From: a virus
DNA: 32,868 bases
IMG/VR virus record: IMGVR_UViG_3300025402_000044
Coordinates: 1-32,868 of that record
Reading direction: 5' to 3' (one strand)
Each line of letters starts with the position of its first letter. Within the stretch, counting starts at the first letter, position 1. This document shows, one piece after another, positions 1-32,868 of this stretch. The notes under the pieces are model-generated. The model did no database searches and was not told the DNA's origin. It saw only the letters and a program-made list of their open reading frames with translations. The position numbers were made by a program, and so were the translations under genes.

Positions 1-575
1 CCCAAAAGTATTCCAAATTCTTCTAGTGGTCTAAGGTAACCTTTTAGGAAACCTACAATGGCACCAAGAGATGCAGCTAAACCAAGACCAATTGTTTCAA
101 GTGCAGTCAACCATCCTGGTTGTTCTTTCTCACCTTCATCACCGCCACCGCCACCGCCGCCCATACCACCAATAGAAGCTGCTATCTGCTTTAATGTATC
201 TTCTATCTGTCTAAGATCCCCACCGAGGAATGCTGTTTGTTTATTAATAGCTTCCGATACATCACTAATTGCAGTAGCATTGTCTTTTGTAGCTTCAAGA
301 ATAGCATTGCTTACTGTAATTAACTGGTTCAGCAATCCTTCCATATTACTACTTGGACCAGCAGGAACTGTGCCTCCTGCTGTAGGTCTTCCACCACCTT
401 TACTGCCACCTCCGCTGAAAGCACCCTGTACGCCTTGTACAATACCAAAGCCATGTAGCCCTAGCTCACTCTCTATTCCAAGTGCACCTGCTTGCAAAAC
501 ACTGCCAGCTACGTTGTAAGCTGCCTTAGCAGTACCTTTGGCCAACTTCGATGTGATAGAACTAATACTAGCCAT
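1..575 (-). CDS. Probable tail tape measure protein, N-terminal 191 residues (runs off the left edge)
   Basis: An ORF starts at the ATG at 575-573 and stays open to base 1, so at least 191 residues are encoded and the C-terminus is outside the window. The ATG overlaps the stop of the upstream 60-residue ORF by 8 bp (ATGGCTAG), which implies translational coupling. The protein has a low-complexity Gly/Ser-rich stretch near residues 53-75, a predicted helical segment near 80-130, a run of Gly at about 135-141, and a hydrophobic segment near residues 152-175 (GLGLAASLGAIVGFL). Tape measure proteins usually follow the tail assembly chaperone genes and carry hydrophobic helices. The assignment rests on that position and composition. 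No specific gp29 motif was recognised, so another hub or structural protein is possible. Confidence 0.5.
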   Translation of the reverse strand, partial: MASISSITSKLAKGTAKAAYNVAGSVLQAGALGIESELGLHGFGIVQGVQGAFSGGGSKGGGRPTAGGTVPAGPSSNMEGLLNQLITVSNAILEATKDNATAISDVSEAINKQTAFLGGDLRQIEDTLKQIAASIGGMGGGGGGGDEGEKEQPGWLTALETIGLGLAASLGAIVGFLKGYLRPLEEFGILL

Positions 576-750
576 TTTGTCTCTTCTTGTTTTCTTCTTC
601 TACTTGTTTCAGATATTGTGTCAATAGTTCCACAAATAAGTCTCTCTCGTAGGGGTACATATTATATACTTCTGTCAAAGAATATTTATGATGTTGTACC
701 AAAGAAAAAAGAGTTTGATAATAGACCGAGATATTACTATATCCGGTCAT
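568..750 (-). CDS. 60-residue second tail-assembly-chaperone ORF, probably made as a -1 frameshift extension of gp26
   Basis: This small acidic ORF has a Tyr-rich N-terminal half and a helical, charged C-terminal end (YPYERDLFVELL...EEENKKR). Its ATG overlaps the gp26 stop codon as TAATG, and its end overlaps the probable tape measure start. No good ribosome binding site lies at normal distance from its ATG; the nearest AAGGA is about 20 nt upstream. It lies in the -1 frame relative to gp26, and that frame is open from the T7 run at 762-756, the next upstream codon being TAG. A frameshift there would give a 293-residue product (231 gp26 residues, Tyr-Val, then this ORF). By analogy with lambda gpT and P2 E', the role would be recruiting tube subunits to the tape measure during assembly. 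Independent translation by coupling remains possible. Confidence 0.7.
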   Translation of the reverse strand: MTGYSNISVYYQTLFSLVQHHKYSLTEVYNMYPYERDLFVELLTQYLKQVEEENKKRQNG

Positions 751-776
751 TACGTAAAAAAACTATTAATTCCTTT
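724..776 (-). promoter_or_regulatory. Candidate programmed -1 ribosomal frameshift signal
   Basis: Read on the minus strand, the parts are: AAAAGGA (777-771); 8 nt; the heptamer T_TTT_TTT at 762-756, phased as X_XXY_YYZ in the gp26 frame (AGT TTT TTT ACG TAA); a 7-nt spacer (755-749); then a hairpin at 748-724. The hairpin pairs GACCG (748-744) with CGGTC (728-724) and GATAT (743-739) with ATATC (734-730), with loop AGTA and one bulged T at 729. Sequence, spacing and phase all match known -1 sites with an upstream Shine-Dalgarno stimulator and a downstream stem. The shifted frame enters the 60-residue ORF. Confidence 0.78.
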
Positions 777-1448
777 TAGCACAACTTCTCTTGTATCACC
801 TTGCTTATTCTTTAGCTTCACAGTGTGTTCTACGGATGGCATGGTATTGAAGAAGGTTTTTACCTTCTCCATGGAGTCCATTGGTAGAGTGTTGATAAAA
901 TCTAGCAACTCTTCTCTCGAAAAATCAGTATAGACTTTGTCATCATCAAAGATCTTTTCGATACACGCATACAACACATCAAAGATTGCATTCGTATCAT
1001 CACCTTTGTTTCTATCAATAGATTTGATCTCTTCCAACGTTGGATATCTCATTACCATACCAATGTCACCCTGAACGATAATCTTGTTAGAATGGTCAGG
1101 ATGGTTCTTAATCTCAATATCATCCAAGTTAACTTGAAACTTGATAGTTTCCTTGGTATCAGGATCGTTGTATTCAAGATCAACAACTTCACCAACTGAT
1201 TTTGATCTTAACTTAATAAACAAATACTCAATGTCAAACGTAGCAAGTTTATCAACATCTACCTTCTCAGTAATACAATTTTGAATAATTTGTTTAACTG
1301 CAGAAAGAATATCATCAGAGGCTTCAGAAGACTTAGCCATAAACAATAGCTTTTCTTCTTGAACCGTAAATGGTCTTAAAGTAATCTTCTTCTTAGAAGA
1401 AGGAATTGTTACTGGGTAAGTAGGGTGTTTAATTTTTGGTAATGCCAT
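750..1448 (-). CDS. 26: gp26-like baseplate hub / tail assembly chaperone protein
   Basis: The 232-residue product resembles T4 gp26 (about 208 residues; T4 base plate protein family). It begins with LPKIKHPTYPVTIPS, followed by RPFTVQEEKLLFMAK, an arrangement typical of the family, and ends in an acidic helical half. gp26 is known as a hub component or hub assembly factor. Its position one gene before the probable tape measure, with a small ORF in the -1 frame at its end, fits a chaperone role like lambda gpG. The start is supported by AAGGA about 11 nt upstream (minus strand, near 1461-1457). The last codons contain the T_TTT_TTT heptamer described separately. The gene belongs to the minus-strand cluster beginning at gp4. 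Confidence 0.82.
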   Translation of the reverse strand: MALPKIKHPTYPVTIPSSKKKITLRPFTVQEEKLLFMAKSSEASDDILSAVKQIIQNCITEKVDVDKLATFDIEYLFIKLRSKSVGEVVDLEYNDPDTKETIKFQVNLDDIEIKNHPDHSNKIIVQGDIGMVMRYPTLEEIKSIDRNKGDDTNAIFDVLYACIEKIFDDDKVYTDFSREELLDFINTLPMDSMEKVKTFFNTMPSVEHTVKLKNKQGDTREVVLKGINSFFT

Positions 1449-1471: not shown

Positions 1472-2218
1472 TTAATAATTAAGGTTGTTTTGTGAACCGT
1501 TTGTAATCACCTGAGAGGTGACGTCTTGAATTTCTTGGTCAACTCTAGTTTGTGTAGTTGATATTGAATTCATTCTAGATTGAGATCTTGCAGTAACATC
1601 ACTTGCAGCCATTGTAGTAGCAGACCAATTTTTATATGCAAATGTTACAGGTATTCTTACCAACTGATCAGCCATGCTCCAATCAACTTGGATGTCTGTC
1701 ATCGATATAGGAAATGCTTTGTTTAGTGTATATTTAATTACAGTGTTTTCTTCATCTGATGCAGGTGTCGTGCTATTGTATCCATCACTAAACCCATCCA
1801 TATGAATGATTTCTACTGTTCCCTGATATTCATTTGGGTATGCCCAATTGTTAATCATAAGACCGTTTACTTCACCATTAGGATTAGTTGAGTTGTCGAA
1901 GTTGTATATAGTTTGAAACCATTGATGGAAGAACTTGAATACAGCACCATCTACATCACTAAAGAAGTTAACTTGTAATTCTTGAAAGTTCATTGCATGT
2001 GGTCTCTTTTCAGAACCACCATAACCCCACTGCTTAAAATCATCAGCCTGAATAGAAAGACCAGGAAGCATTGCTGATTCGCAAAGCATCCAGAAGCTTT
2101 GGTCAATTAAACCACTCAATGATGAAGGAGGTGTTATATTAACATAAAACTTCGAAGCCTTAGAAAGCCCACCATGTGCGTTAATTGCACCTTGTAGTTC
2201 GGTAATGTTAAAGGCCAT
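1472..2218 (-). CDS. Tail-tube-family protein, probably gp54-like tail tube initiator
   Basis: The 248-residue protein shows the layout of the T4 gp19/gp54 tube superfamily. An N-terminal RNA-like shuffle of short strands includes SKASKFYVNITPP and CESAMLPGLSI. A middle strand pair has MNFQELQVNFFSD followed by FFHQWFQTIY. The C-terminal strands are AFPISMTDIQVDW and VRIPVTFAYKNW. The length exceeds gp19 (about 163 residues) and is nearer gp54 (about 320). In T4-like phages the main tube gene usually adjoins the sheath gene, which is absent here, while gp48 is encoded just across the divergent promoter. That context favours gp54, the protein that starts tube polymerisation on the gp48/hub platform. 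It overlaps the upstream gene by 11 bp. Family membership is secure; the gp54 versus gp19 choice is inference. Confidence 0.72.
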   Translation of the reverse strand: MAFNITELQGAINAHGGLSKASKFYVNITPPSSLSGLIDQSFWMLCESAMLPGLSIQADDFKQWGYGGSEKRPHAMNFQELQVNFFSDVDGAVFKFFHQWFQTIYNFDNSTNPNGEVNGLMINNWAYPNEYQGTVEIIHMDGFSDGYNSTTPASDEENTVIKYTLNKAFPISMTDIQVDWSMADQLVRIPVTFAYKNWSATTMAASDVTARSQSRMNSISTTQTRVDQEIQDVTSQVITNGSQNNLNY

Positions 2219-26209: not shown

Positions 26210-26542
26210 ATGTCCGCTATTACAAACCTTACAATTGACCAGGGTTCTGATTTTATTTACTTTGTTCATGTAGTAAATTCATCTGGTAATACTATTAATC
26301 TTTCTTCTTACACTGCTAACTCGCAGATTAGACCTTCATATTCATCTAATGTATTTTACTCTGCAGTACTAGACATGACTAGCTCAGCAAATGGACAAAT
26401 AGTGATGATAGTGAATTCACACACATCATCACTATTAACAAATCCAAGATACGTTTATGATTTGGAGTTAACAAGCAATACAGGAATTGTTTCCAAATTG
26501 CTTAGTGGCTTTGTCACTGTCAACCCAAGTGTAACTCGTTAA
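26210..26542 (+). CDS. Small beta-sandwich virion protein
   Basis: The 110-residue protein has the order TIDQGSDFIYFVHVVNSSGNTINLSSYTANSQIRPSYSS, then FYSAVLDMTSSANGQIVMIVNSHTSSLL, then RYVYDLELTSNTGIVSKLLSGFVTVNPSVTR. This QGS...dG..iNL..Y....qIR...YDLel.....v..ll.G.v.V...VTR pattern is common in small virion proteins of marine phages and looks like an Ig-like or BppU-type beta sandwich. It follows the fibre gene by one base and would attach near the fibre. Its stop codon overlaps the stop of the opposite-strand glycosyltransferase. Confidence 0.75.
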   Translation: MSAITNLTIDQGSDFIYFVHVVNSSGNTINLSSYTANSQIRPSYSSNVFYSAVLDMTSSANGQIVMIVNSHTSSLLTNPRYVYDLELTSNTGIVSKLLSGFVTVNPSVTR

Positions 26543-29322
26543 ACTTTATATACATACGAACCTGTGTGATCGCAGAGTATGCTCGAGTCAGCATAGATCT
26601 TGAATCCTTTTTGATTAGCCTTGTGGCAGAAGTCTAGATCTTCAGAGAAGGTCTCGTTGTGATCCAAAGCTGTTCTATAGACAAATTGTGGATACCCAAT
26701 ATCAACCATGACTTGTTTCTTGATTAGAACACAACCCATACCAACAGCACCTACCTGAACAAGACCTTTATCTTTGATCTTCTCATATGGCATGTGGTTA
26801 TAACCACCCTTATCATTAGTCTCGAAGATTTCAATCACATGACGATCGTGGAACCTCTGGATGTATATTCCAGATACAACATCAACGTCGTGATTGATCA
26901 TCTTAACCAATGTGTCAGGAGCAAAAGATATATCAGAATCTATTGCAAGTAGATAGTCGTATGATCCTTTAACTATCCAATCAGCAATTAAGTTACGTAC
27001 TTGTTCCACATTGTATCCATAGAAGAATTGAAACTGTGTCTCGTATCCTTCTGGTACGATAAGGTCATAGATTGACTTAAACGTAGTTGCTTCAATGTTC
27101 TTAGCCGTTGGAATTGCTATTAGAATCTTTTTTTTTGACATAATGTTCCTTGCTACTATATCTTTAGTGCGAACCATTTCCACTTTTGGGTCTAATTGTT
27201 TTGTTGTTGAATTTACTTCTATCTTTTCCAGCTTTACACCCTTGCTAAGGACTTGTGCAGCATTCCAGTTCTGTTGTTGACTATTAACTTTATAATCGTT
27301 TAGTGGATTTTTATCATTGTAAAGCATTACAATGTCAGACACGACTGTAATCTTTTCTGGATCTGCTTGCTCTAGGATGTTATAGAACGTAGCATTGTCA
27401 CCACCCGCTTTAAACCATTTGCCATCATGATCTTTAAATACATTATTAGATATATTATTGATTAGTCCTCTACGAAATGTTCTCAAATGAGGATAAGGCA
27501 TATTCCAGTTAAACTTGTAACTGCGGTAACCTTTTGTATCTCTCACTGCTTTCGGATAAGGTTGAGCCTGAAGAGGGATATCATCTACTTCTGACCAGCA
27601 ACTACCATATGAGTAATCTGTCTTGCCTTGAGCATAAAGGTTATTGTAAAAATTAAAAATATTATTGTCGTTGATGAGAGCGTCATCACCATCAAGTAAC
27701 ATTACAATGTGATCATCACCATCTGGCTCATCCACAGATATAATCCTTAGCATGCTAATTTGATTATACACAGCACCAAAGTTTTCTGGATTATGTTTTA
27801 CGGTAAATTTATCAATTAGGTGTGGATACATATACTTAATGTAATTAACAACAAGATCGAGACTAGTATCATTACTATTGTCATCAATCAAGTACATATG
27901 CCAGTTATCATAATTTTGTGATGCAACAGAATCAATACATCTTAAAATGTAGTCGAATGCGTTGTAGAATGGTGTTATAATATTAATACGTTGCTCAGAA
28001 GATACTTTGTAACTATTCCATTCTTCTGGATTGCTAAACCTACGACCAAATACTTTATGTACACGGTCATTGATATAGGATACTTTACGGAAATCCTCTA
28101 CAGGAAGATACAAACCAAGCTTCTTGTAGATATGTTGTTTCCATTGTAATGCAACAGTATCCCAGCCAGCAATGTCCTTTACAATATTGCACGCATACAT
28201 CTTTTGCTGGTGGAGATATTTGTTATTGTAGGCATCAAATACCATCTTGCCAAAATCACGAGCTTGTTTAGCTGGATCGATATTAGGAAATAGGTTGTTT
28301 GGTTCAATTGCATAATCTAGATGGTAACATGCAGACTCTATGGCAGTCTCTTCAAGTGCACCAAACCGTACAGTCAAGAGAGGTGTGTTGTAATACAACG
28401 ACTCAAGTGCCGATATACCAAACGTCTCTGGGAAAGCACCAGGAAAGATAAAGAAGCTGGCAGATTGGAACAACTCTGCAACTTGTTTCTGTGGAATAAT
28501 TCCAGTAAAAGAAACATCCAGATCTTTATATTGCTCTTGTTGCGCAAGATCTTCTAGTTCACGTTGCTGCTGATCTGGCTCTGCTGTTGAGCTAAACTTA
28601 TAATAACCACCAGCCACAACTAGCTTTGCATCAGGAAGATTCAACTTTACAAGTGGCCACACATTATTAAGTAATGGCTTCAACCCTTTTGATACAGATG
28701 CAACGTATACAAAAAGATTGGGATCTTTTTTAGTAATATCTGTTTCTTCAAAATACTTAACAATACCATTACGTGTTTGATAGATCTTCTTCTTTAGTAC
28801 TTCAAAGTTACGACGATCACCACCGTGCCAACAATTCGTGACATATGATGTATGAAAATCAGATAGTGTAAACAATTCATCAATGTAATTACTGACTAGC
28901 AACTTCTCGACAAATGGATCACCCCAAATAAATGTATCATGCATCCACAATATCTTGTGCTTGCTTGCCTCTCTTACATTATCAAACAAACTATAAGGAT
29001 ATCTGGTAGAGTTTTCTATTTGTCCTTGAAGTTCTTTTGGTACGAATGGAGTAATGCAACGAGATGAAATCATAACATCATATTGTTTTTCACATTTATC
29101 AATATGACTAATATGCTTATACTTCACACCATCATATGTACCAGGACTACAATCTGTATCAGTGCAATGGTTATATACAGATACGTCAAACCCTATCGAT
29201 ACAAGTTCTTTGGCAATCAAGCTCAATGCAGATTCGGATCCACCAAGTGCACGATTCTTAATCGTGTTACCATCATATACCAATCCAATCGAATCTATAA
29301 TAACAATAGAAGGTTTTTTCAT
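26539..29322 (-). CDS. Three-domain glycosyltransferase (GT4-like, GT2-like and a third GT-A-like domain)
   Basis: The 927-residue protein begins at the ATG 29322-29320, preceded by GGTGA with 7 nt spacing. The open frame also reaches a TTG at 29382, which is a less likely start. Counting from the TTG, residues about 21-420 are GT4-like: ALGGSESALSLIAKEL, then PETFGISALE with the E-x7-E motif. Residues about 463-740 are GT2-like: INIITPFYNAF...YLIDDNSND and LLDGDD as the DxD site. Residues about 747-947 form a further GT-A-like domain: ILIAIPTAK, AIDSDISF as DxD, and EDLDFCHKANQKGFKIYAD. No membrane segment or signal was seen. It is the only minus-strand gene among the fibre genes. Candidate targets are the neighbouring fibre proteins, other virion proteins or host surface glycans; the sequence does not decide. 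Confidence 0.85.
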   Translation of the reverse strand: MKKPSIVIIDSIGLVYDGNTIKNRALGGSESALSLIAKELVSIGFDVSVYNHCTDTDCSPGTYDGVKYKHISHIDKCEKQYDVMISSRCITPFVPKELQGQIENSTRYPYSLFDNVREASKHKILWMHDTFIWGDPFVEKLLVSNYIDELFTLSDFHTSYVTNCWHGGDRRNFEVLKKKIYQTRNGIVKYFEETDITKKDPNLFVYVASVSKGLKPLLNNVWPLVKLNLPDAKLVVAGGYYKFSSTAEPDQQQRELEDLAQQEQYKDLDVSFTGIIPQKQVAELFQSASFFIFPGAFPETFGISALESLYYNTPLLTVRFGALEETAIESACYHLDYAIEPNNLFPNIDPAKQARDFGKMVFDAYNNKYLHQQKMYACNIVKDIAGWDTVALQWKQHIYKKLGLYLPVEDFRKVSYINDRVHKVFGRRFSNPEEWNSYKVSSEQRINIITPFYNAFDYILRCIDSVASQNYDNWHMYLIDDNSNDTSLDLVVNYIKYMYPHLIDKFTVKHNPENFGAVYNQISMLRIISVDEPDGDDHIVMLLDGDDALINDNNIFNFYNNLYAQGKTDYSYGSCWSEVDDIPLQAQPYPKAVRDTKGYRSYKFNWNMPYPHLRTFRRGLINNISNNVFKDHDGKWFKAGGDNATFYNILEQADPEKITVVSDIVMLYNDKNPLNDYKVNSQQQNWNAAQVLSKGVKLEKIEVNSTTKQLDPKVEMVRTKDIVARNIMSKKKILIAIPTAKNIEATTFKSIYDLIVPEGYETQFQFFYGYNVEQVRNLIADWIVKGSYDYLLAIDSDISFAPDTLVKMINHDVDVVSGIYIQRFHDRHVIEIFETNDKGGYNHMPYEKIKDKGLVQVGAVGMGCVLIKKQVMVDIGYPQFVYRTALDHNETFSEDLDFCHKANQKGFKIYADSSILCDHTGSYVYKV

Positions 29323-29402
29323 CTCAAATTCACCATTCCAAACACATAAATAAAAACACTTGTAATCTATAATATATATCAATTCAATTAATCAGGCAAC
29401 GA
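29323..29402. promoter_or_regulatory. Divergent intergenic region between the glycosyltransferase and the collagen-like gene
   Basis: This 80-bp AT-rich gap must hold promoters for two divergent genes. On the plus strand CATAAATA at 29345-29352 matches 7 of 8 bases of the late box, and TATAATAT at 29368-29375 lies about 28 bp before the ATG at 29403. AGG at 29394-29396 is a weak ribosome binding site for that ATG. No exact TATAAATA is present on either strand, so promoter positions are uncertain. Confidence 0.35.
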
Positions 29403-31485
29403 ATGTCTTTAATAATTCAAAATCAAAATTTAATTGGCAACGGCAGCAATACTCAATTCACATTGCTAACGTCGACGGCTAACTCTGTAAATGTTATTAC
29501 AGTGGTCAATGGCCTTGTACAAACTCCTGATATAGATTATACGGTTGCTGGAAGTACGTTGACGTTTACTATTCCACCAGTTTCAACAGCAGAGATTGAA
29601 GTTAGATATTATTCAACTGATGATACTACAGGATACAAAGGTTCTGCTGGATATCAAGGTTCACAAGGATTTCAAGGATCAACAGGTGATTCTGGTTATG
29701 TAGGAAGTATGGGATATACTGGATCTAGAGGAGCTGGTTATACTGGTTCTACAGGTTTAGTAGGAGCACCAACAAGCAATCAATACATCAATGCTGATGG
29801 TGTCAATTCAATCTTTACAATGAATGTTCCTGTTACAGATCCCAACAACATATTTGTTTTTATTAACGGTATTGTACAAACACCAACAATAGATTATACA
29901 GTATCAGGAACTACTTTAACCTTTACGTTTGTTCCTTCTACCAATTCAGCAATAGAAATTAGATTCTTTGGCATTGCTCAAGGATTGACTGGTTATAGAG
30001 GATCGCTAGGTGATTCTGGTTATACTGGTTCAATGGGATCTGTTGGTTATCAAGGTAGTATAGGATTCACAGGTTCTTCAGGAACATCTGGATATACTGG
30101 TTCTATTGGTTATGCAGGAACAATAGGATATACAGGTTCATTAGGTTATACGGGTTCAGCGGGAGCAGGATATACAGGATCTGCAGGTCCTGCAGGTGCT
30201 CCTACAAGTAGTCAATCTATAACTGCAGATGGTACCAACAACTCATTCACAATGTCACAATCCGTTTCCAATCCTAACTATGTGTTGGTTACAATCAATG
30301 GCTTGTTACAAATACCTACTACAGACTATACTGTATCAGGAACAAATATAACATTTGCATTTACTCCAATTAACTCTGCAATCATAGAACTTAGATACTT
30401 TGGAGAGATTGGATCTGAAGGATATCAAGGATCTGTAGGCTTCCAAGGTTCTGCTGGTGTGGGATATATTGGTTCTTTAGGCTTTACTGGTTCTATTGGA
30501 TATACAGGTTCTAGAGGAGCTGGGTATACAGGTTCGATGGGTCCTGTAGGGGCCCCTTCTGATTATCAAGTATTTGTTGGTGATGGTGTTTCAACTTCAT
30601 TCACTATGAAGAATAGTGTTCCATTTGAAGCAGCAATCATAGTAGCTATCAATGGTCTTATTCAGATTCCAATAACTGATTATACTGTATCTGGTACTAA
30701 TGTCAACTTTAATTTTGTTCCTAATAACCTTTCTGAAATAGAGATAAGATATTTTGAAATTACCGAGGGGTTTAGAGGTTCTGTTGGTTATCAAGGCTCT
30801 GCTGGTACGCCTGGAACAGGATACTGGGGTTCAGTAGGCTATACAGGTTCGATAGGTTACACAGGCTCTGTTGGTATAGGCTTGCAAGGTCCTGTAGGAG
30901 CTCCTCAAGATAACCAAACATTTATTGGAACAGGATCTACTTCTTCATTTACAATGAACTATTCCATTGTTAATGAGAGTAACATTATTGTTACCATCAA
31001 CGGATTGGTACAGATTCCTGTAACAGACTATACTGTATCGGGAAATACACTTTCGTTTACTGTAATTCCTCCTAACAATACTAATATTGAAGTTAGATAC
31101 TTCACGATTGCTGCCGTTGGATATTCAGGATCAGTTGGTTACAAAGGTTCTGTAGGTGATCCAGGTGGTTCAACAGGTTATACTGGATCTATTGGTTTCA
31201 CAGGATCGATTGGTATTGGATTCACAGGATCTATTGGTATTGGTTATACAGGTTCTGCTGGTGTTGGTGTTCCTTATGATATGGAAACACAAACATCATC
31301 TTCCAATCAGACAGTTTTTATATTAAAGAATGTTGTGGCTCAACCAGGCAACATCTTCCTTTCTGTTAATGGATTGTTACAAACACCTATATTAGATTAC
31401 AACATTAGCAACTCAAATACTTTAACACTAACAACAGCACCTGCACTAAACTCTGTTGTTGAAGTAAGATATTTTGCTGGAACAG
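29403..31485 (+). repeat. Six copies of a beta module alternating with Gly-x-y segments
   Basis: Modules lie at about 29403-29630, 29778-29990, 30212-30420, 30560-30772, 30911-31117 and 31271-31485. Each has the core ADGxxxSFTM, then INGLxQxPxxDYTVSG, then LxFxFxPxxxxxIEIRYF. The sixth copy is the most divergent (DYNISNS for DYTVSG). Five of the six junctions to Gly-x-y end in a GAP or G-P motif before the next module. Confidence 0.85.
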
Positions 31486-32868
31486 GTTATGCTGGTTCAC
31501 AAGGATATAATGGATCTGCTGGTTTCCAGGGATCTGTTGGTGTAACAGGTAGCCAAGGATCTGTAGGATATCAAGGATCTGTTGGCTTCCAAGGTTCTGC
31601 ATCTTTTGGTGGCTATCAAGGCTCAATAGGTTTCCAAGGTTCTCAAGGTAACATTGGTAACCAAGGAACTATAGGTTTCCAAGGTAGTCAAGGAGATCAA
31701 GGTTTAGTTGGCTTCCAGGGTTCACAAGGTAATATTGGTACACAAGGTGATGTTGGCTATCAAGGATCGGCTGGGTTTGCTGGATCAATAGGTAATTTAG
31801 GTGGTACAGGTTATCAAGGTTCTGTAGGAGCTCAAGGATCTGGTGGACAAATTGGTCCAACTGGACTTCAAGGTAACATTGGTTTCCAAGGATCTTCTGG
31901 ATATAGAGGCTCTGTCGGCGCTGCTGGTGCTGGTTTCCAAGGTTCTTTAGGCTTTCAAGGTTCTATTGGTAGCGTTGGATATCAAGGTTCTTCTGGAGCT
32001 TCTGCAGCAGCTGGCTACCAAGGCTCAGTAGGTTTCCAAGGTAGTATTGGATTTCAAGGTAGTGTAGGTAATCAAGGCATATCTGGTTACCAAGGATCGC
32101 TTGGTGATACTGGATACTTAGGTTCGATTGGTTTCCAAGGATCGTTTGGTAACACTGGTTATCAAGGATCATCGGGTGCATCATCGTCTGCTGGTTATCA
32201 GGGGTCAGGTGGCTTTCAGGGTTCTGTAGGTTTCCAAGGTTCCATTGGTGCTACAGGATATCAGGGTGATGTTGGATATCAGGGTTCTGCTGGCTTCCAA
32301 GGTAGTGTTGGTGATCAAGGAAATATTGGTTACCAAGGATCACAAGGTGATATAGGATATCAGGGTGTTGTAGGTTTCCAAGGATCTGTGGGTTTTCAAG
32401 GTTCTTTTGGTTACACAGGATATCAAGGTTCTTCAGGTCAATCTGCATCAGCAGGCTACCAAGGATCTTCTGGCTTCCAAGGTTCTGCTGGCTTCCAAGG
32501 TTCATTTGGTGATACAGGGTATCAAGGTTCAGTAGGTTTCCAAGGATCTGTTGGGTTTCAGGGATCTATTGGTGGAACAGGATATCAAGGATCAGCAGGT
32601 GCAGCAGCTGCTGCGGGTTACCAAGGCTCAGTAGGATTTCAAGGAAGTGTTGGGTTCCAAGGTTCCGTTGGCTTCCAAGGTTCGTTTGGTGGAACAGGAT
32701 ATCTAGGTTCCATTGGCTTCAAGGGTAGTACAGGCTTCCAAGGTTCTGTTGGTGCTACTGGCTATCAAGGTTCAGTTGGATTTCAAGGTTCAGTTGGATT
32801 TCAAGGATCGGTAGGCTTCCAGGGTTCGTTTGGTAATACAGGATATCAAGGATCTTCTGGTGCCGCAG
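29403..32868 (+). CDS. Giant collagen-like (Gly-x-y) fibre protein with six beta modules, incomplete at the right edge
   Basis: An ATG at 29403 opens a frame that continues for at least 1155 codons to the window end. The first 690 or so residues alternate six copies of a roughly 70-residue beta module with Gly-x-y segments of 45-75 residues. From about residue 695 on, the protein is almost pure Gly-x-y, dominated by GFQGSV and GYQGSS hexapeptides, with breaks such as GASAAAG. Proline is very rare in the y and x positions. Collagen-like repeats form trimeric shafts in many phage fibres, so this is probably a long receptor-facing fibre. Many short reverse-strand reading frames in this region are by-products of the repeat. 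The C-terminal receptor-binding end lies outside the window. Confidence 0.85.
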   Translation, partial: MSLIIQNQNLIGNGSNTQFTLLTSTANSVNVITVVNGLVQTPDIDYTVAGSTLTFTIPPVSTAEIEVRYYSTDDTTGYKGSAGYQGSQGFQGSTGDSGYVGSMGYTGSRGAGYTGSTGLVGAPTSNQYINADGVNSIFTMNVPVTDPNNIFVFINGIVQTPTIDYTVSGTTLTFTFVPSTNSAIEIRFFGIAQGLTGYRGSLGDSGYTGSMGSVGYQGSIGFTGSSGTSGYTGSIGYAGTIGYTGSLGYTGSAGAGYTGSAGPAGAPTSSQSITADGTNNSFTMSQSVSNPNYVLVTINGLLQIPTTDYTVSGTNITFAFTPINSAIIELRYFGEIGSEGYQGSVGFQGSAGVGYIGSLGFTGSIGYTGSRGAGYTGSMGPVGAPSDYQVFVGDGVSTSFTMKNSVPFEAAIIVAINGLIQIPITDYTVSGTNVNFNFVPNNLSEIEIRYFEITEGFRGSVGYQGSAGTPGTGYWGSVGYTGSIGYTGSVGIGLQGPVGAPQDNQTFIGTGSTSSFTMNYSIVNESNIIVTINGLVQIPVTDYTVSGNTLSFTVIPPNNTNIEVRYFTIAAVGYSGSVGYKGSVGDPGGSTGYTGSIGFTGSIGIGFTGSIGIGYTGSAGVGVPYDMETQTSSSNQTVFILKNVVAQPGNIFLSVNGLLQTPILDYNISNSNTLTLTTAPALNSVVEVRYFAGTGYAGSQGYNGSAGFQGSVGVTGSQGSVGYQGSVGFQGSASFGGYQGSIGFQGSQGNIGNQGTIGFQGSQGDQGLVGFQGSQGNIGTQGDVGYQGSAGFAGSIGNLGGTGYQGSVGAQGSGGQIGPTGLQGNIGFQGSSGYRGSVGAAGAGFQGSLGFQGSIGSVGYQGSSGASAAAGYQGSVGFQGSIGFQGSVGNQGISGYQGSLGDTGYLGSIGFQGSFGNTGYQGSSGASSSAGYQGSGGFQGSVGFQGSIGATGYQGDVGYQGSAGFQGSVGDQGNIGYQGSQGDIGYQGVVGFQGSVGFQGSFGYTGYQGSSGQSASAGYQGSSGFQGSAGFQGSFGDTGYQGSVGFQGSVGFQGSIGGTGYQGSAGAAAAAGYQGSVGFQGSVGFQGSVGFQGSFGGTGYLGSIGFKGSTGFQGSVGATGYQGSVGFQGSVGFQGSVGFQGSFGNTGYQGSSGAA
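31486..32868 (+). repeat. Long Gly-x-y array with a hexapeptide period and regular breaks
   Basis: The array follows a G-aromatic-Q-G-S-(V/I/A/S) hexapeptide (18-bp DNA period). A landmark GYQGSSGAS/GYQGS..GAA recurs at 31977, 32157, 32418, 32580 and 32841, giving spacings of 180, 261, 162 and 261 bp. After it comes an Ala/Ser-rich break that keeps the reading frame but interrupts Gly-x-y. Confidence 0.85.

Follow-up and report, generated by a model that had tools for sequence, protein, structure and literature searches.

In phage lambda, the short tail assembly chaperone gpG and its rarer −1 fusion gpGT bind the tape measure protein, with the ratio of the two set by the frameshift, and both are described as absent from virions (PMC5009743). 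The locus presented here, which lies in a record of 32,868 bases from a T4-related bacteriophage (the window, meaning the whole stretch of DNA that was analysed), resembles this system in the combination of a short chaperone with a predicted and presumably rarer −1 fusion. The slippery sequence of lambda gpG/gpGT differs from that of the window. A further likeness is found in phage P2 (E/E+E'), a contractile-tailed phage with a programmed shift in its tail gene operon, and there the protein sequence and the heptamer differ from those of the window.

In phage T4, gp26 and gp51 have been listed as hub assembly chaperones (PMC3004832). The same source describes T4 gp51 as an essential protein that is missing from the particle and whose function is unknown, and cites genetic evidence that places T4 gp26 in the hub, with the reports on gp26 in disagreement. 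In this respect T4 gp26 differs from lambda G/GT, for which absence from virions was stated.

The closest precedent was identified through citations in other papers. Vladimirov et al. 2022 (Vladimirov, Gautam and Davidson, Virology 566:9-15) is cited in PMC12846349 as a source on poly-T −1 signals of chaperone genes in T4-like phages and in PMC10885494 for T4-like phages that have one short and one long, fused gene in place of the frameshift. These T4-like tail assembly chaperones are of the same phage group and the same protein kind as the gene in the window; T4 itself has two separate genes, whereas the window has one gene with a putative shift. As described in PMC12846349, Pseudomonas phage Adele and other Vandenendeviridae share with the window a conserved −1 continuation and a T-rich slip motif before the tape measure gene, but they belong to another phage family and the motif is GTTTTT.

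A first-pass annotation of the window had stated that no such shift was known to it for gp26 of T4 relatives. In view of the poly-T −1 signals for which PMC12846349 cites Vladimirov et al. 2022, this statement has to be withdrawn, and the idea of a frameshift in T4-like chaperone genes is largely in print already. Among the papers listed by a literature search, none had a frameshift in gp26 of cyanophages or of the window's lineage in its title or abstract opening, with subscription journals mostly outside the range of the search. Because T4-like poly-T −1 signals are in print and none was found in that search for gp26 of cyanophages or of the window's lineage, the finding was counted as a further case of the known frameshift-chaperone kind.

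The gp26 locus and its candidate frameshift signal

The gp26 region is located on the minus strand of the window, where a gp4-type head closure protein, a gp2-type DNA end protector, a tail tube/gp54-type protein, gp26, the 60-residue ORF and one more ORF, cut short by the window's edge, follow each other in this order (Table 1). The fragment of the last ORF had no family match in the Pfam and phrog searches. On contig L002, gp26 is 100% identical to that of the window, and the downstream ORF is complete there (713 aa) and matches tape measure families (phrog_58, E 2.9e-14). The position of gp26 between the tail tube and tape measure genes was confirmed in this way, by phrog_45 upstream and, via L002, by phrog_58 downstream.

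Table 1. Coordinates of the features at the gp26 locus, given as positions in the window
Feature	Position	Strand	Basis
Start of downstream tape measure gene, running off the window	3..575	-	Identified via full-length counterpart on L002
60-residue ORF, putative gp51-type C-terminal segment of the long chaperone	568..750	-	phrog_634 E 2.2e-18; phrog_150 weakly, E 0.0034
−1 frame region that would be entered by the shift (FFYVMTGYSN...)	568..762	-	Translation; same frame on contig L002, identical junction
10-bp stem-loop (748-739 pairs with 734-724; loop AGTA, 738-735; T729 bulged), 7 nt downstream of heptamer	724..748	-	Folding −13.7 kcal/mol, z −3.75
TAATG, in which the gp26 stop and the start ATG of the 60-residue ORF overlap	748..752	-	Sequence; ATG varies among close relatives
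gp26 homologue, 232 aa, predicted short (zero-frame) chaperone	750..1448	-	PF12322 T4_baseplate E 5.7e-63; phrog_150 E 1.5e-67; AlphaFold2 pLDDT 90.8
Slippery heptamer T_TTT_TTT, gp26 frame	756..762	-	Sequence; in-phase TTTTTTN at 274/275 distinct junctions
TAA (768-766) and TAG (765-763), which end the −1 frame just ahead of the heptamer	763..768	-	Sequence
SD-like AAGGA, candidate stimulator, 8 nt upstream of heptamer (T762)	771..775	-	Sequence
Tail tube/gp54-type protein, upstream of gp26	1472..2218	-	phrog_45 tail tube E 3.5e-29; PF23849 E 2.8e-13

Two other ORFs of the window attracted attention. A very long ORF at 29403-32867 (plus strand) has collagen-like GYQGS/GFQGS repeats and runs off the window, and an ORF of 947 residues at 26539-29382 (minus strand) has a glycosyltransferase-like look and lies, in opposite orientation, between genes of structural appearance.

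The 3′ end of gp26 reads ...CTA AAA GGA ATT AAT AGT TTT TTT ACG TAA, in which a run of exactly seven T (T762-T756) is phased as T_TTT_TTT in the gp26 frame. The −1 frame is open from position 762 through to the stop of the 60-residue ORF. Already in the first-pass annotation this junction was read as a −1 frameshift signal, and the in-phase heptamer, the AAGGA upstream of it and the 10-bp stem downstream of it were recovered base for base as claimed, as was the closure of the −1 frame by TAG just ahead of the T run and its opening into the 60-residue ORF; the overlap of the gp26 stop with the ATG of the small ORF is a point absent from that annotation. By arithmetic from the translations, the predicted fusion would consist of 231 residues, YV and a further 60 residues, giving a length of 293. 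The folding energy listed in Table 1 refers to the 41 nt after the heptamer, for which 0 of 200 shuffles were as good, and in this fold the stem is extended outwards to 15 pairs.

Very probably, one gene gives rise to both a short and a long tail assembly chaperone through a programmed −1 ribosomal frameshift close to the 3′ end of gp26; the shift itself, its rate and the binding to the tape measure protein are what we infer. Most ribosomes would stop at TAA and yield the 232-residue short form, and a minority would slip back one base at T_TTT_TTT and yield the 293-residue long form, of which the last 62 residues would come from the −1 frame. The slip would be helped by the stem-loop and perhaps by the SD-like AAGGA. 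By analogy with lambda gpG/gpGT, the short and long forms may cover the tape measure protein and bring in subunits of the tail tube. The counterpart of this pair in T4 would be the products of two paralogous genes, the short gp26 and the long gp51.

Conservation of frame, heptamer and stimulators

Loci of relatives were gathered with protein or profile queries of the frameshift type and from GenBank regions, and four of the six locus scans kept the best 80 of 595, 280, 276 and 147, so the collection is no unbiased survey. Contig L001, which is the window itself, was set aside ahead of the count of 358 sequences, and T4 (L034, with gp26 on the other strand) was unmatched, leaving 357 sequences with gp26, in which the window is counted and some contigs occur more than once. 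With a profile seeded with 15 of the resulting loci and T4, a gp51-like segment was detected at 344 loci, and at 344 of 344 it was found in the −1 frame of gp26 (same-contig repeats included; frameshift-type queries, best 80 in four of six scans). The segment was undetected in 13 of the 357 sequences, of which 10 were cut by contig ends and three (Vibrio K364 and K357 and Stenotrophomonas Mendera) show a −1 segment by eye.

Removal of identical 300-nt junctions reduced the 344 loci to 275 distinct junctions. A heptamer scan open to any X_XXY_YYZ identified an in-phase TTTTTTN within 30 codons of the gp26 end and past the final −1 stop in 274 of them, ending in C (172 junctions), T (80), A (21) or G (1). 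The sole exception was Klebsiella phage May, whose segment was a weak match (E 0.017). Outside the 275 junctions, Mendera and PX29 have T_TTT_TTC, and Vibrio K364 and K357 are without a heptamer. Among the 10 distinct sequences of the window's lineage, the T run was invariant and all 10 pairs of the stem were intact in 10 of 10 sequences (100 of 100 cells), with two pairs varying by GU. The first-pass annotation had named loss of the heptamer and stem from relatives that keep both ORFs as evidence against its own reading; the heptamer was kept at all junctions but one, and this, together with the constant −1 phase and the intact lineage stem, supports the frameshift reading.

The T run at the junction goes beyond chance. 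Elsewhere in the gp26 genes of the 275 distinct junctions, T_TTT_TT[TC] encodes 8 of 317 FF pairs, as compared with 252 FF sites at the junction (22 further junction heptamers end in A or G), and FFxTMP, a conserved motif of gp26, was encoded by T_TTT_TTY in 7 of 253.

A different arrangement was observed in Klebsiella phage May (Ackermannviridae; L358 near 4741) and in two unclassified Vibrio phages grouping with it (K364 and K357; loci L353 near 4723 and L354 near 4672). The −1 gp51-like segment is kept in these phages, and the codons at the slip site are ATT TTC, CTT TTT or CTT TTC, with no canonical heptamer. May and the two Vibrio phages possibly slip on a single U_UUY codon.

Downstream structure was analysed in 145 representatives with junctions less than 80% identical, the heptamer-less L358 and those with less than 450 nt of sequence being left out. 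For a 45-nt stretch that begins 4 nt past the heptamer, the mean z was −1.83 and 44% of the representatives fell below −2, as compared with means of −0.52 to +0.07 at six other offsets (dinucleotide control). With synonymous-codon shuffles of the same representatives, the junction had a mean of −2.17 (56% at p<=0.05), and the controls gave +0.21 (6%) for the gp51-like ORF 60 nt on and −0.52 (16%) for the gp26 body. Weak downstream structure is common, as 58 of the 145 representatives fail to reach −8 kcal/mol in 50 nt, and the strongest structures, P-SSM2 (L029) included, are long hairpins, with 16 pairs in L218. The window's stem lies within coding sequence, and no two-sided covariation was found in it among the 10 distinct lineage sequences; the argument for the stem is therefore one of folding statistics.

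A possible H-type pseudoknot just after the heptamer (CTCT/AGAG with ATAATT/AATTAT) was noticed in Melnitz-type phages (L033 and several of L116-L134). It is not claimed for this lineage, as it is broken in some relatives (e.g. L124 and L135).

Upstream of the heptamer, an SD-like tetramer was present at a distance of 5-18 nt in 117 of the 145 representatives versus 264 of 2900 control windows, an enrichment that is partly forced by the conserved E/K-G of the protein. Codon choice at this site was shifted towards GAG (61% of 93 versus 29% elsewhere) and GGG (21% of 112 versus 7% elsewhere), whereas AAG ran the other way (29% of 14 versus 37% elsewhere).

The gp51-type segment and competing readings

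The 60-residue ORF matched phrog_634, annotated as 'baseplate hub assembly catalyst', at positions 61-117 of 121, and its weak match to the gp26 family phrog_150 covered positions 241-281 of 282. These profile matches identify it as the C-terminal portion of T4 gp51-family proteins. NCBIfam contained no match for gp26 or for the 60-residue ORF, and a Pfam match of the latter to PF22057 (E 0.008) was set aside as it was under the family cut-off. In the records of S-BM3 (OQ319121) and DSL-LC03 (OR003938), no gene is annotated under the gp51-like match, as expected for a segment without its own start.

Two separate proteins might be made instead of a fusion, with reinitiation at the overlapping TAATG after gp26 leading to a free 60-residue gp51-like protein. 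Such a reading is improbable, even if the window has this TAATG, an in-frame ATG precedes the core of the segment (profile position 10) in 124 of the 275 distinct junctions, and gp26 and the gp51-like ORF are listed as separate genes in 10 of 11 frameshift-type GenBank records with gene tables (gp26 alone in the remaining one, AS-zj). However, the start is not conserved, as the stretch between the −1 stop and the core offers only GTG or TTG in 43 junctions and none of ATG, GTG and TTG in 108, and within the window's lineage (10 distinct sequences) TAATG was found in four, TGATG in one, TTG only in two and no usual start in three. It is the heptamer that is conserved instead of a start codon. 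An SD-like tetramer precedes the first ATG in just 2 of 65 ATG-bearing representatives versus 93 of 144 for gp26's own start, and T4 gp51, as described below, is a continuous fusion. The tiny 'gp51' beside gp26 in marine T4-like phages, often without a proper start, is most likely the tail of a longer gp26 and no separate gene, and gene records of marine T4-like phages would need correcting.

Transcriptional slippage, in which RNA polymerase would add one U on the T run and so join the gp26 frame to the C-terminal segment, has even less to recommend it and is regarded as very improbable. The window does have a seven-T run that could serve for this, but at 172 of the 275 junctions the T run is shorter (TTTTTTC), and the downstream structure and the upstream SD-like sites suit a ribosomal event. 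Mere chance, with T runs for FF arising often in AT-rich DNA and the stem a by-product of the coding sequence, is hardly credible at all as an explanation and already contradicted by the conservation data, as the protein does end in a conserved FF but other FF pairs and FFxTMP motifs so rarely read as a T-run heptamer, and structure stands out only at the junction among the seven offsets.

Chaperone fold and the two-gene phages

Further support for a programmed frameshift that makes two chaperones comes from the family to which gp26 belongs. In addition to the window gp26, PF12322 was matched by T4 gp26 (E 8.8e-64) and T4 gp51 (E 3.9e-52). T4 gp26 consists of PF12322 alone, whereas T4 gp51 consists of PF12322 over residues 1-201 and then the gp51-type C-terminal segment, and matches both phrog_634 (E 1.2e-23) and phrog_150 over residues 3-248. 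The T4-type long proteins in alignment A4 extend beyond the conserved FF of the slip site; L371 was left out of this alignment because its translation contains stops. Because T4 gp51 is made up of a gp26-like part and the C-terminal segment, the predicted fusion has a natural continuous counterpart. A search with T4 gp51 returned 1339 phage records, and the match reached residue 247 or 249 in 49 of 50 evenly sampled rows, so that the C-terminal segment was included.

In L371, the T4-type gp51 match covers 746 nt (1501-2246), and the translation of 1501-2241 has 16 stops, which points to a frame disruption or a sequencing error.

The window gp26 was modelled with AlphaFold2 from 92 sequences. 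When the first 95 residues of this model were compared by VIA-align, the best matches were 3fgx (Z 8.0), 2ob9 (Z 7.5), YqbN 3klu (Z 7.1) and 5ir0 (Z 5.3), followed by Z values of 4.6 and 2.4; 3klu and 3fgx are entries that we take to be chaperones of the HK97 tail assembly kind. Residues 1-85 were superimposed on the HK97 tail assembly chaperone 2ob9 with 83 residues aligned and an rmsd of 3.6, at a Z (7.5) typical of best matches even without relatives. Among 1000 chains, 2ob9 and 3klu ranked second and third (Z 7.5 and 7.1, where Z 7-8 is usual without a clear match). Foldseek with the gp26 model gave no significant match (HK97 E 0.82), and no match of gp26 in a search of PDB sequences went below E 0.12. 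A model of T4-type gp51 (pLDDT 86) had no significant PDB match, and the HK97 chaperone reached only Z 2.1, over another part. Overall, the modelling leans towards an HK97 tail assembly chaperone fold for the N-terminal part of gp26. The likeness to 2ob9 lies in this predicted fold; the HK97 chaperone has 107 residues, whereas gp26 has 232 and its second half is without a clear match. A chaperone of the gpG type, as had been proposed for gp26 from the window's sequence, is supported by the gene order and by T4 gp51 as a continuous fusion and, less firmly, by this fold similarity.

Phages with two genes differ in how these are arranged. In T4, RB49 and Acinetobacter phage Konradin, the short and long genes are on opposite strands. 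In Klebsiella phage KP15 (L360 4001-5295), the long gene (gp51) and then the short gene (gp26) lie in tandem on the same strand and overlap by 4 nt, which looks like a little-changed duplication. T4 gp26 ends with GAG TTC TTT GAG TTA CTA TAA, without a heptamer, and its −1 frame leads into gene 25. The frameshift arrangement occurs in other Straboviridae, namely Aeromonas AS-zj and PX29 and Vibrio nt-1.

A tree of 34 rows separated the two-gene proteins (seven short and seven long) from the rest by a branch (98/99), and the long proteins clustered as one group (100/99). One duplication fits, because the two-gene proteins share one side of the branch and the long ones are a single group. The short two-gene proteins formed a single group in only 28% of bootstrap trees. 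The tree was rooted at the midpoint, and the program warned of long branches meeting (the KP15 short gene with the long group); the number and direction of the duplication events are what we infer from it. By a narrow preference, the single-gene frameshift is considered ancestral in T4-related phages (cyanophages, the window's lineage and the Straboviridae AS-zj, PX29 and nt-1), and a single duplication would have replaced it by two genes in the branch that holds T4, RB49, Konradin and KP15. According to this scenario, KP15 would be intermediate-like, T4 gp51 would be a fixed frameshift product, and the May-type variant would have lost the canonical heptamer and may slip on U_UUY.

T4 gp28 was considered as a third family member, since phrog_1140 touched T4 gp26 at E 9e-4, and was dropped after a profile comparison of gp28 (two sequences) with gp26 gave a probability of 0.3%. 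The T4 record (L034 8803-9090, minus strand) annotates 26', a shorter product within gene 26, which is another short form in the chaperone family.
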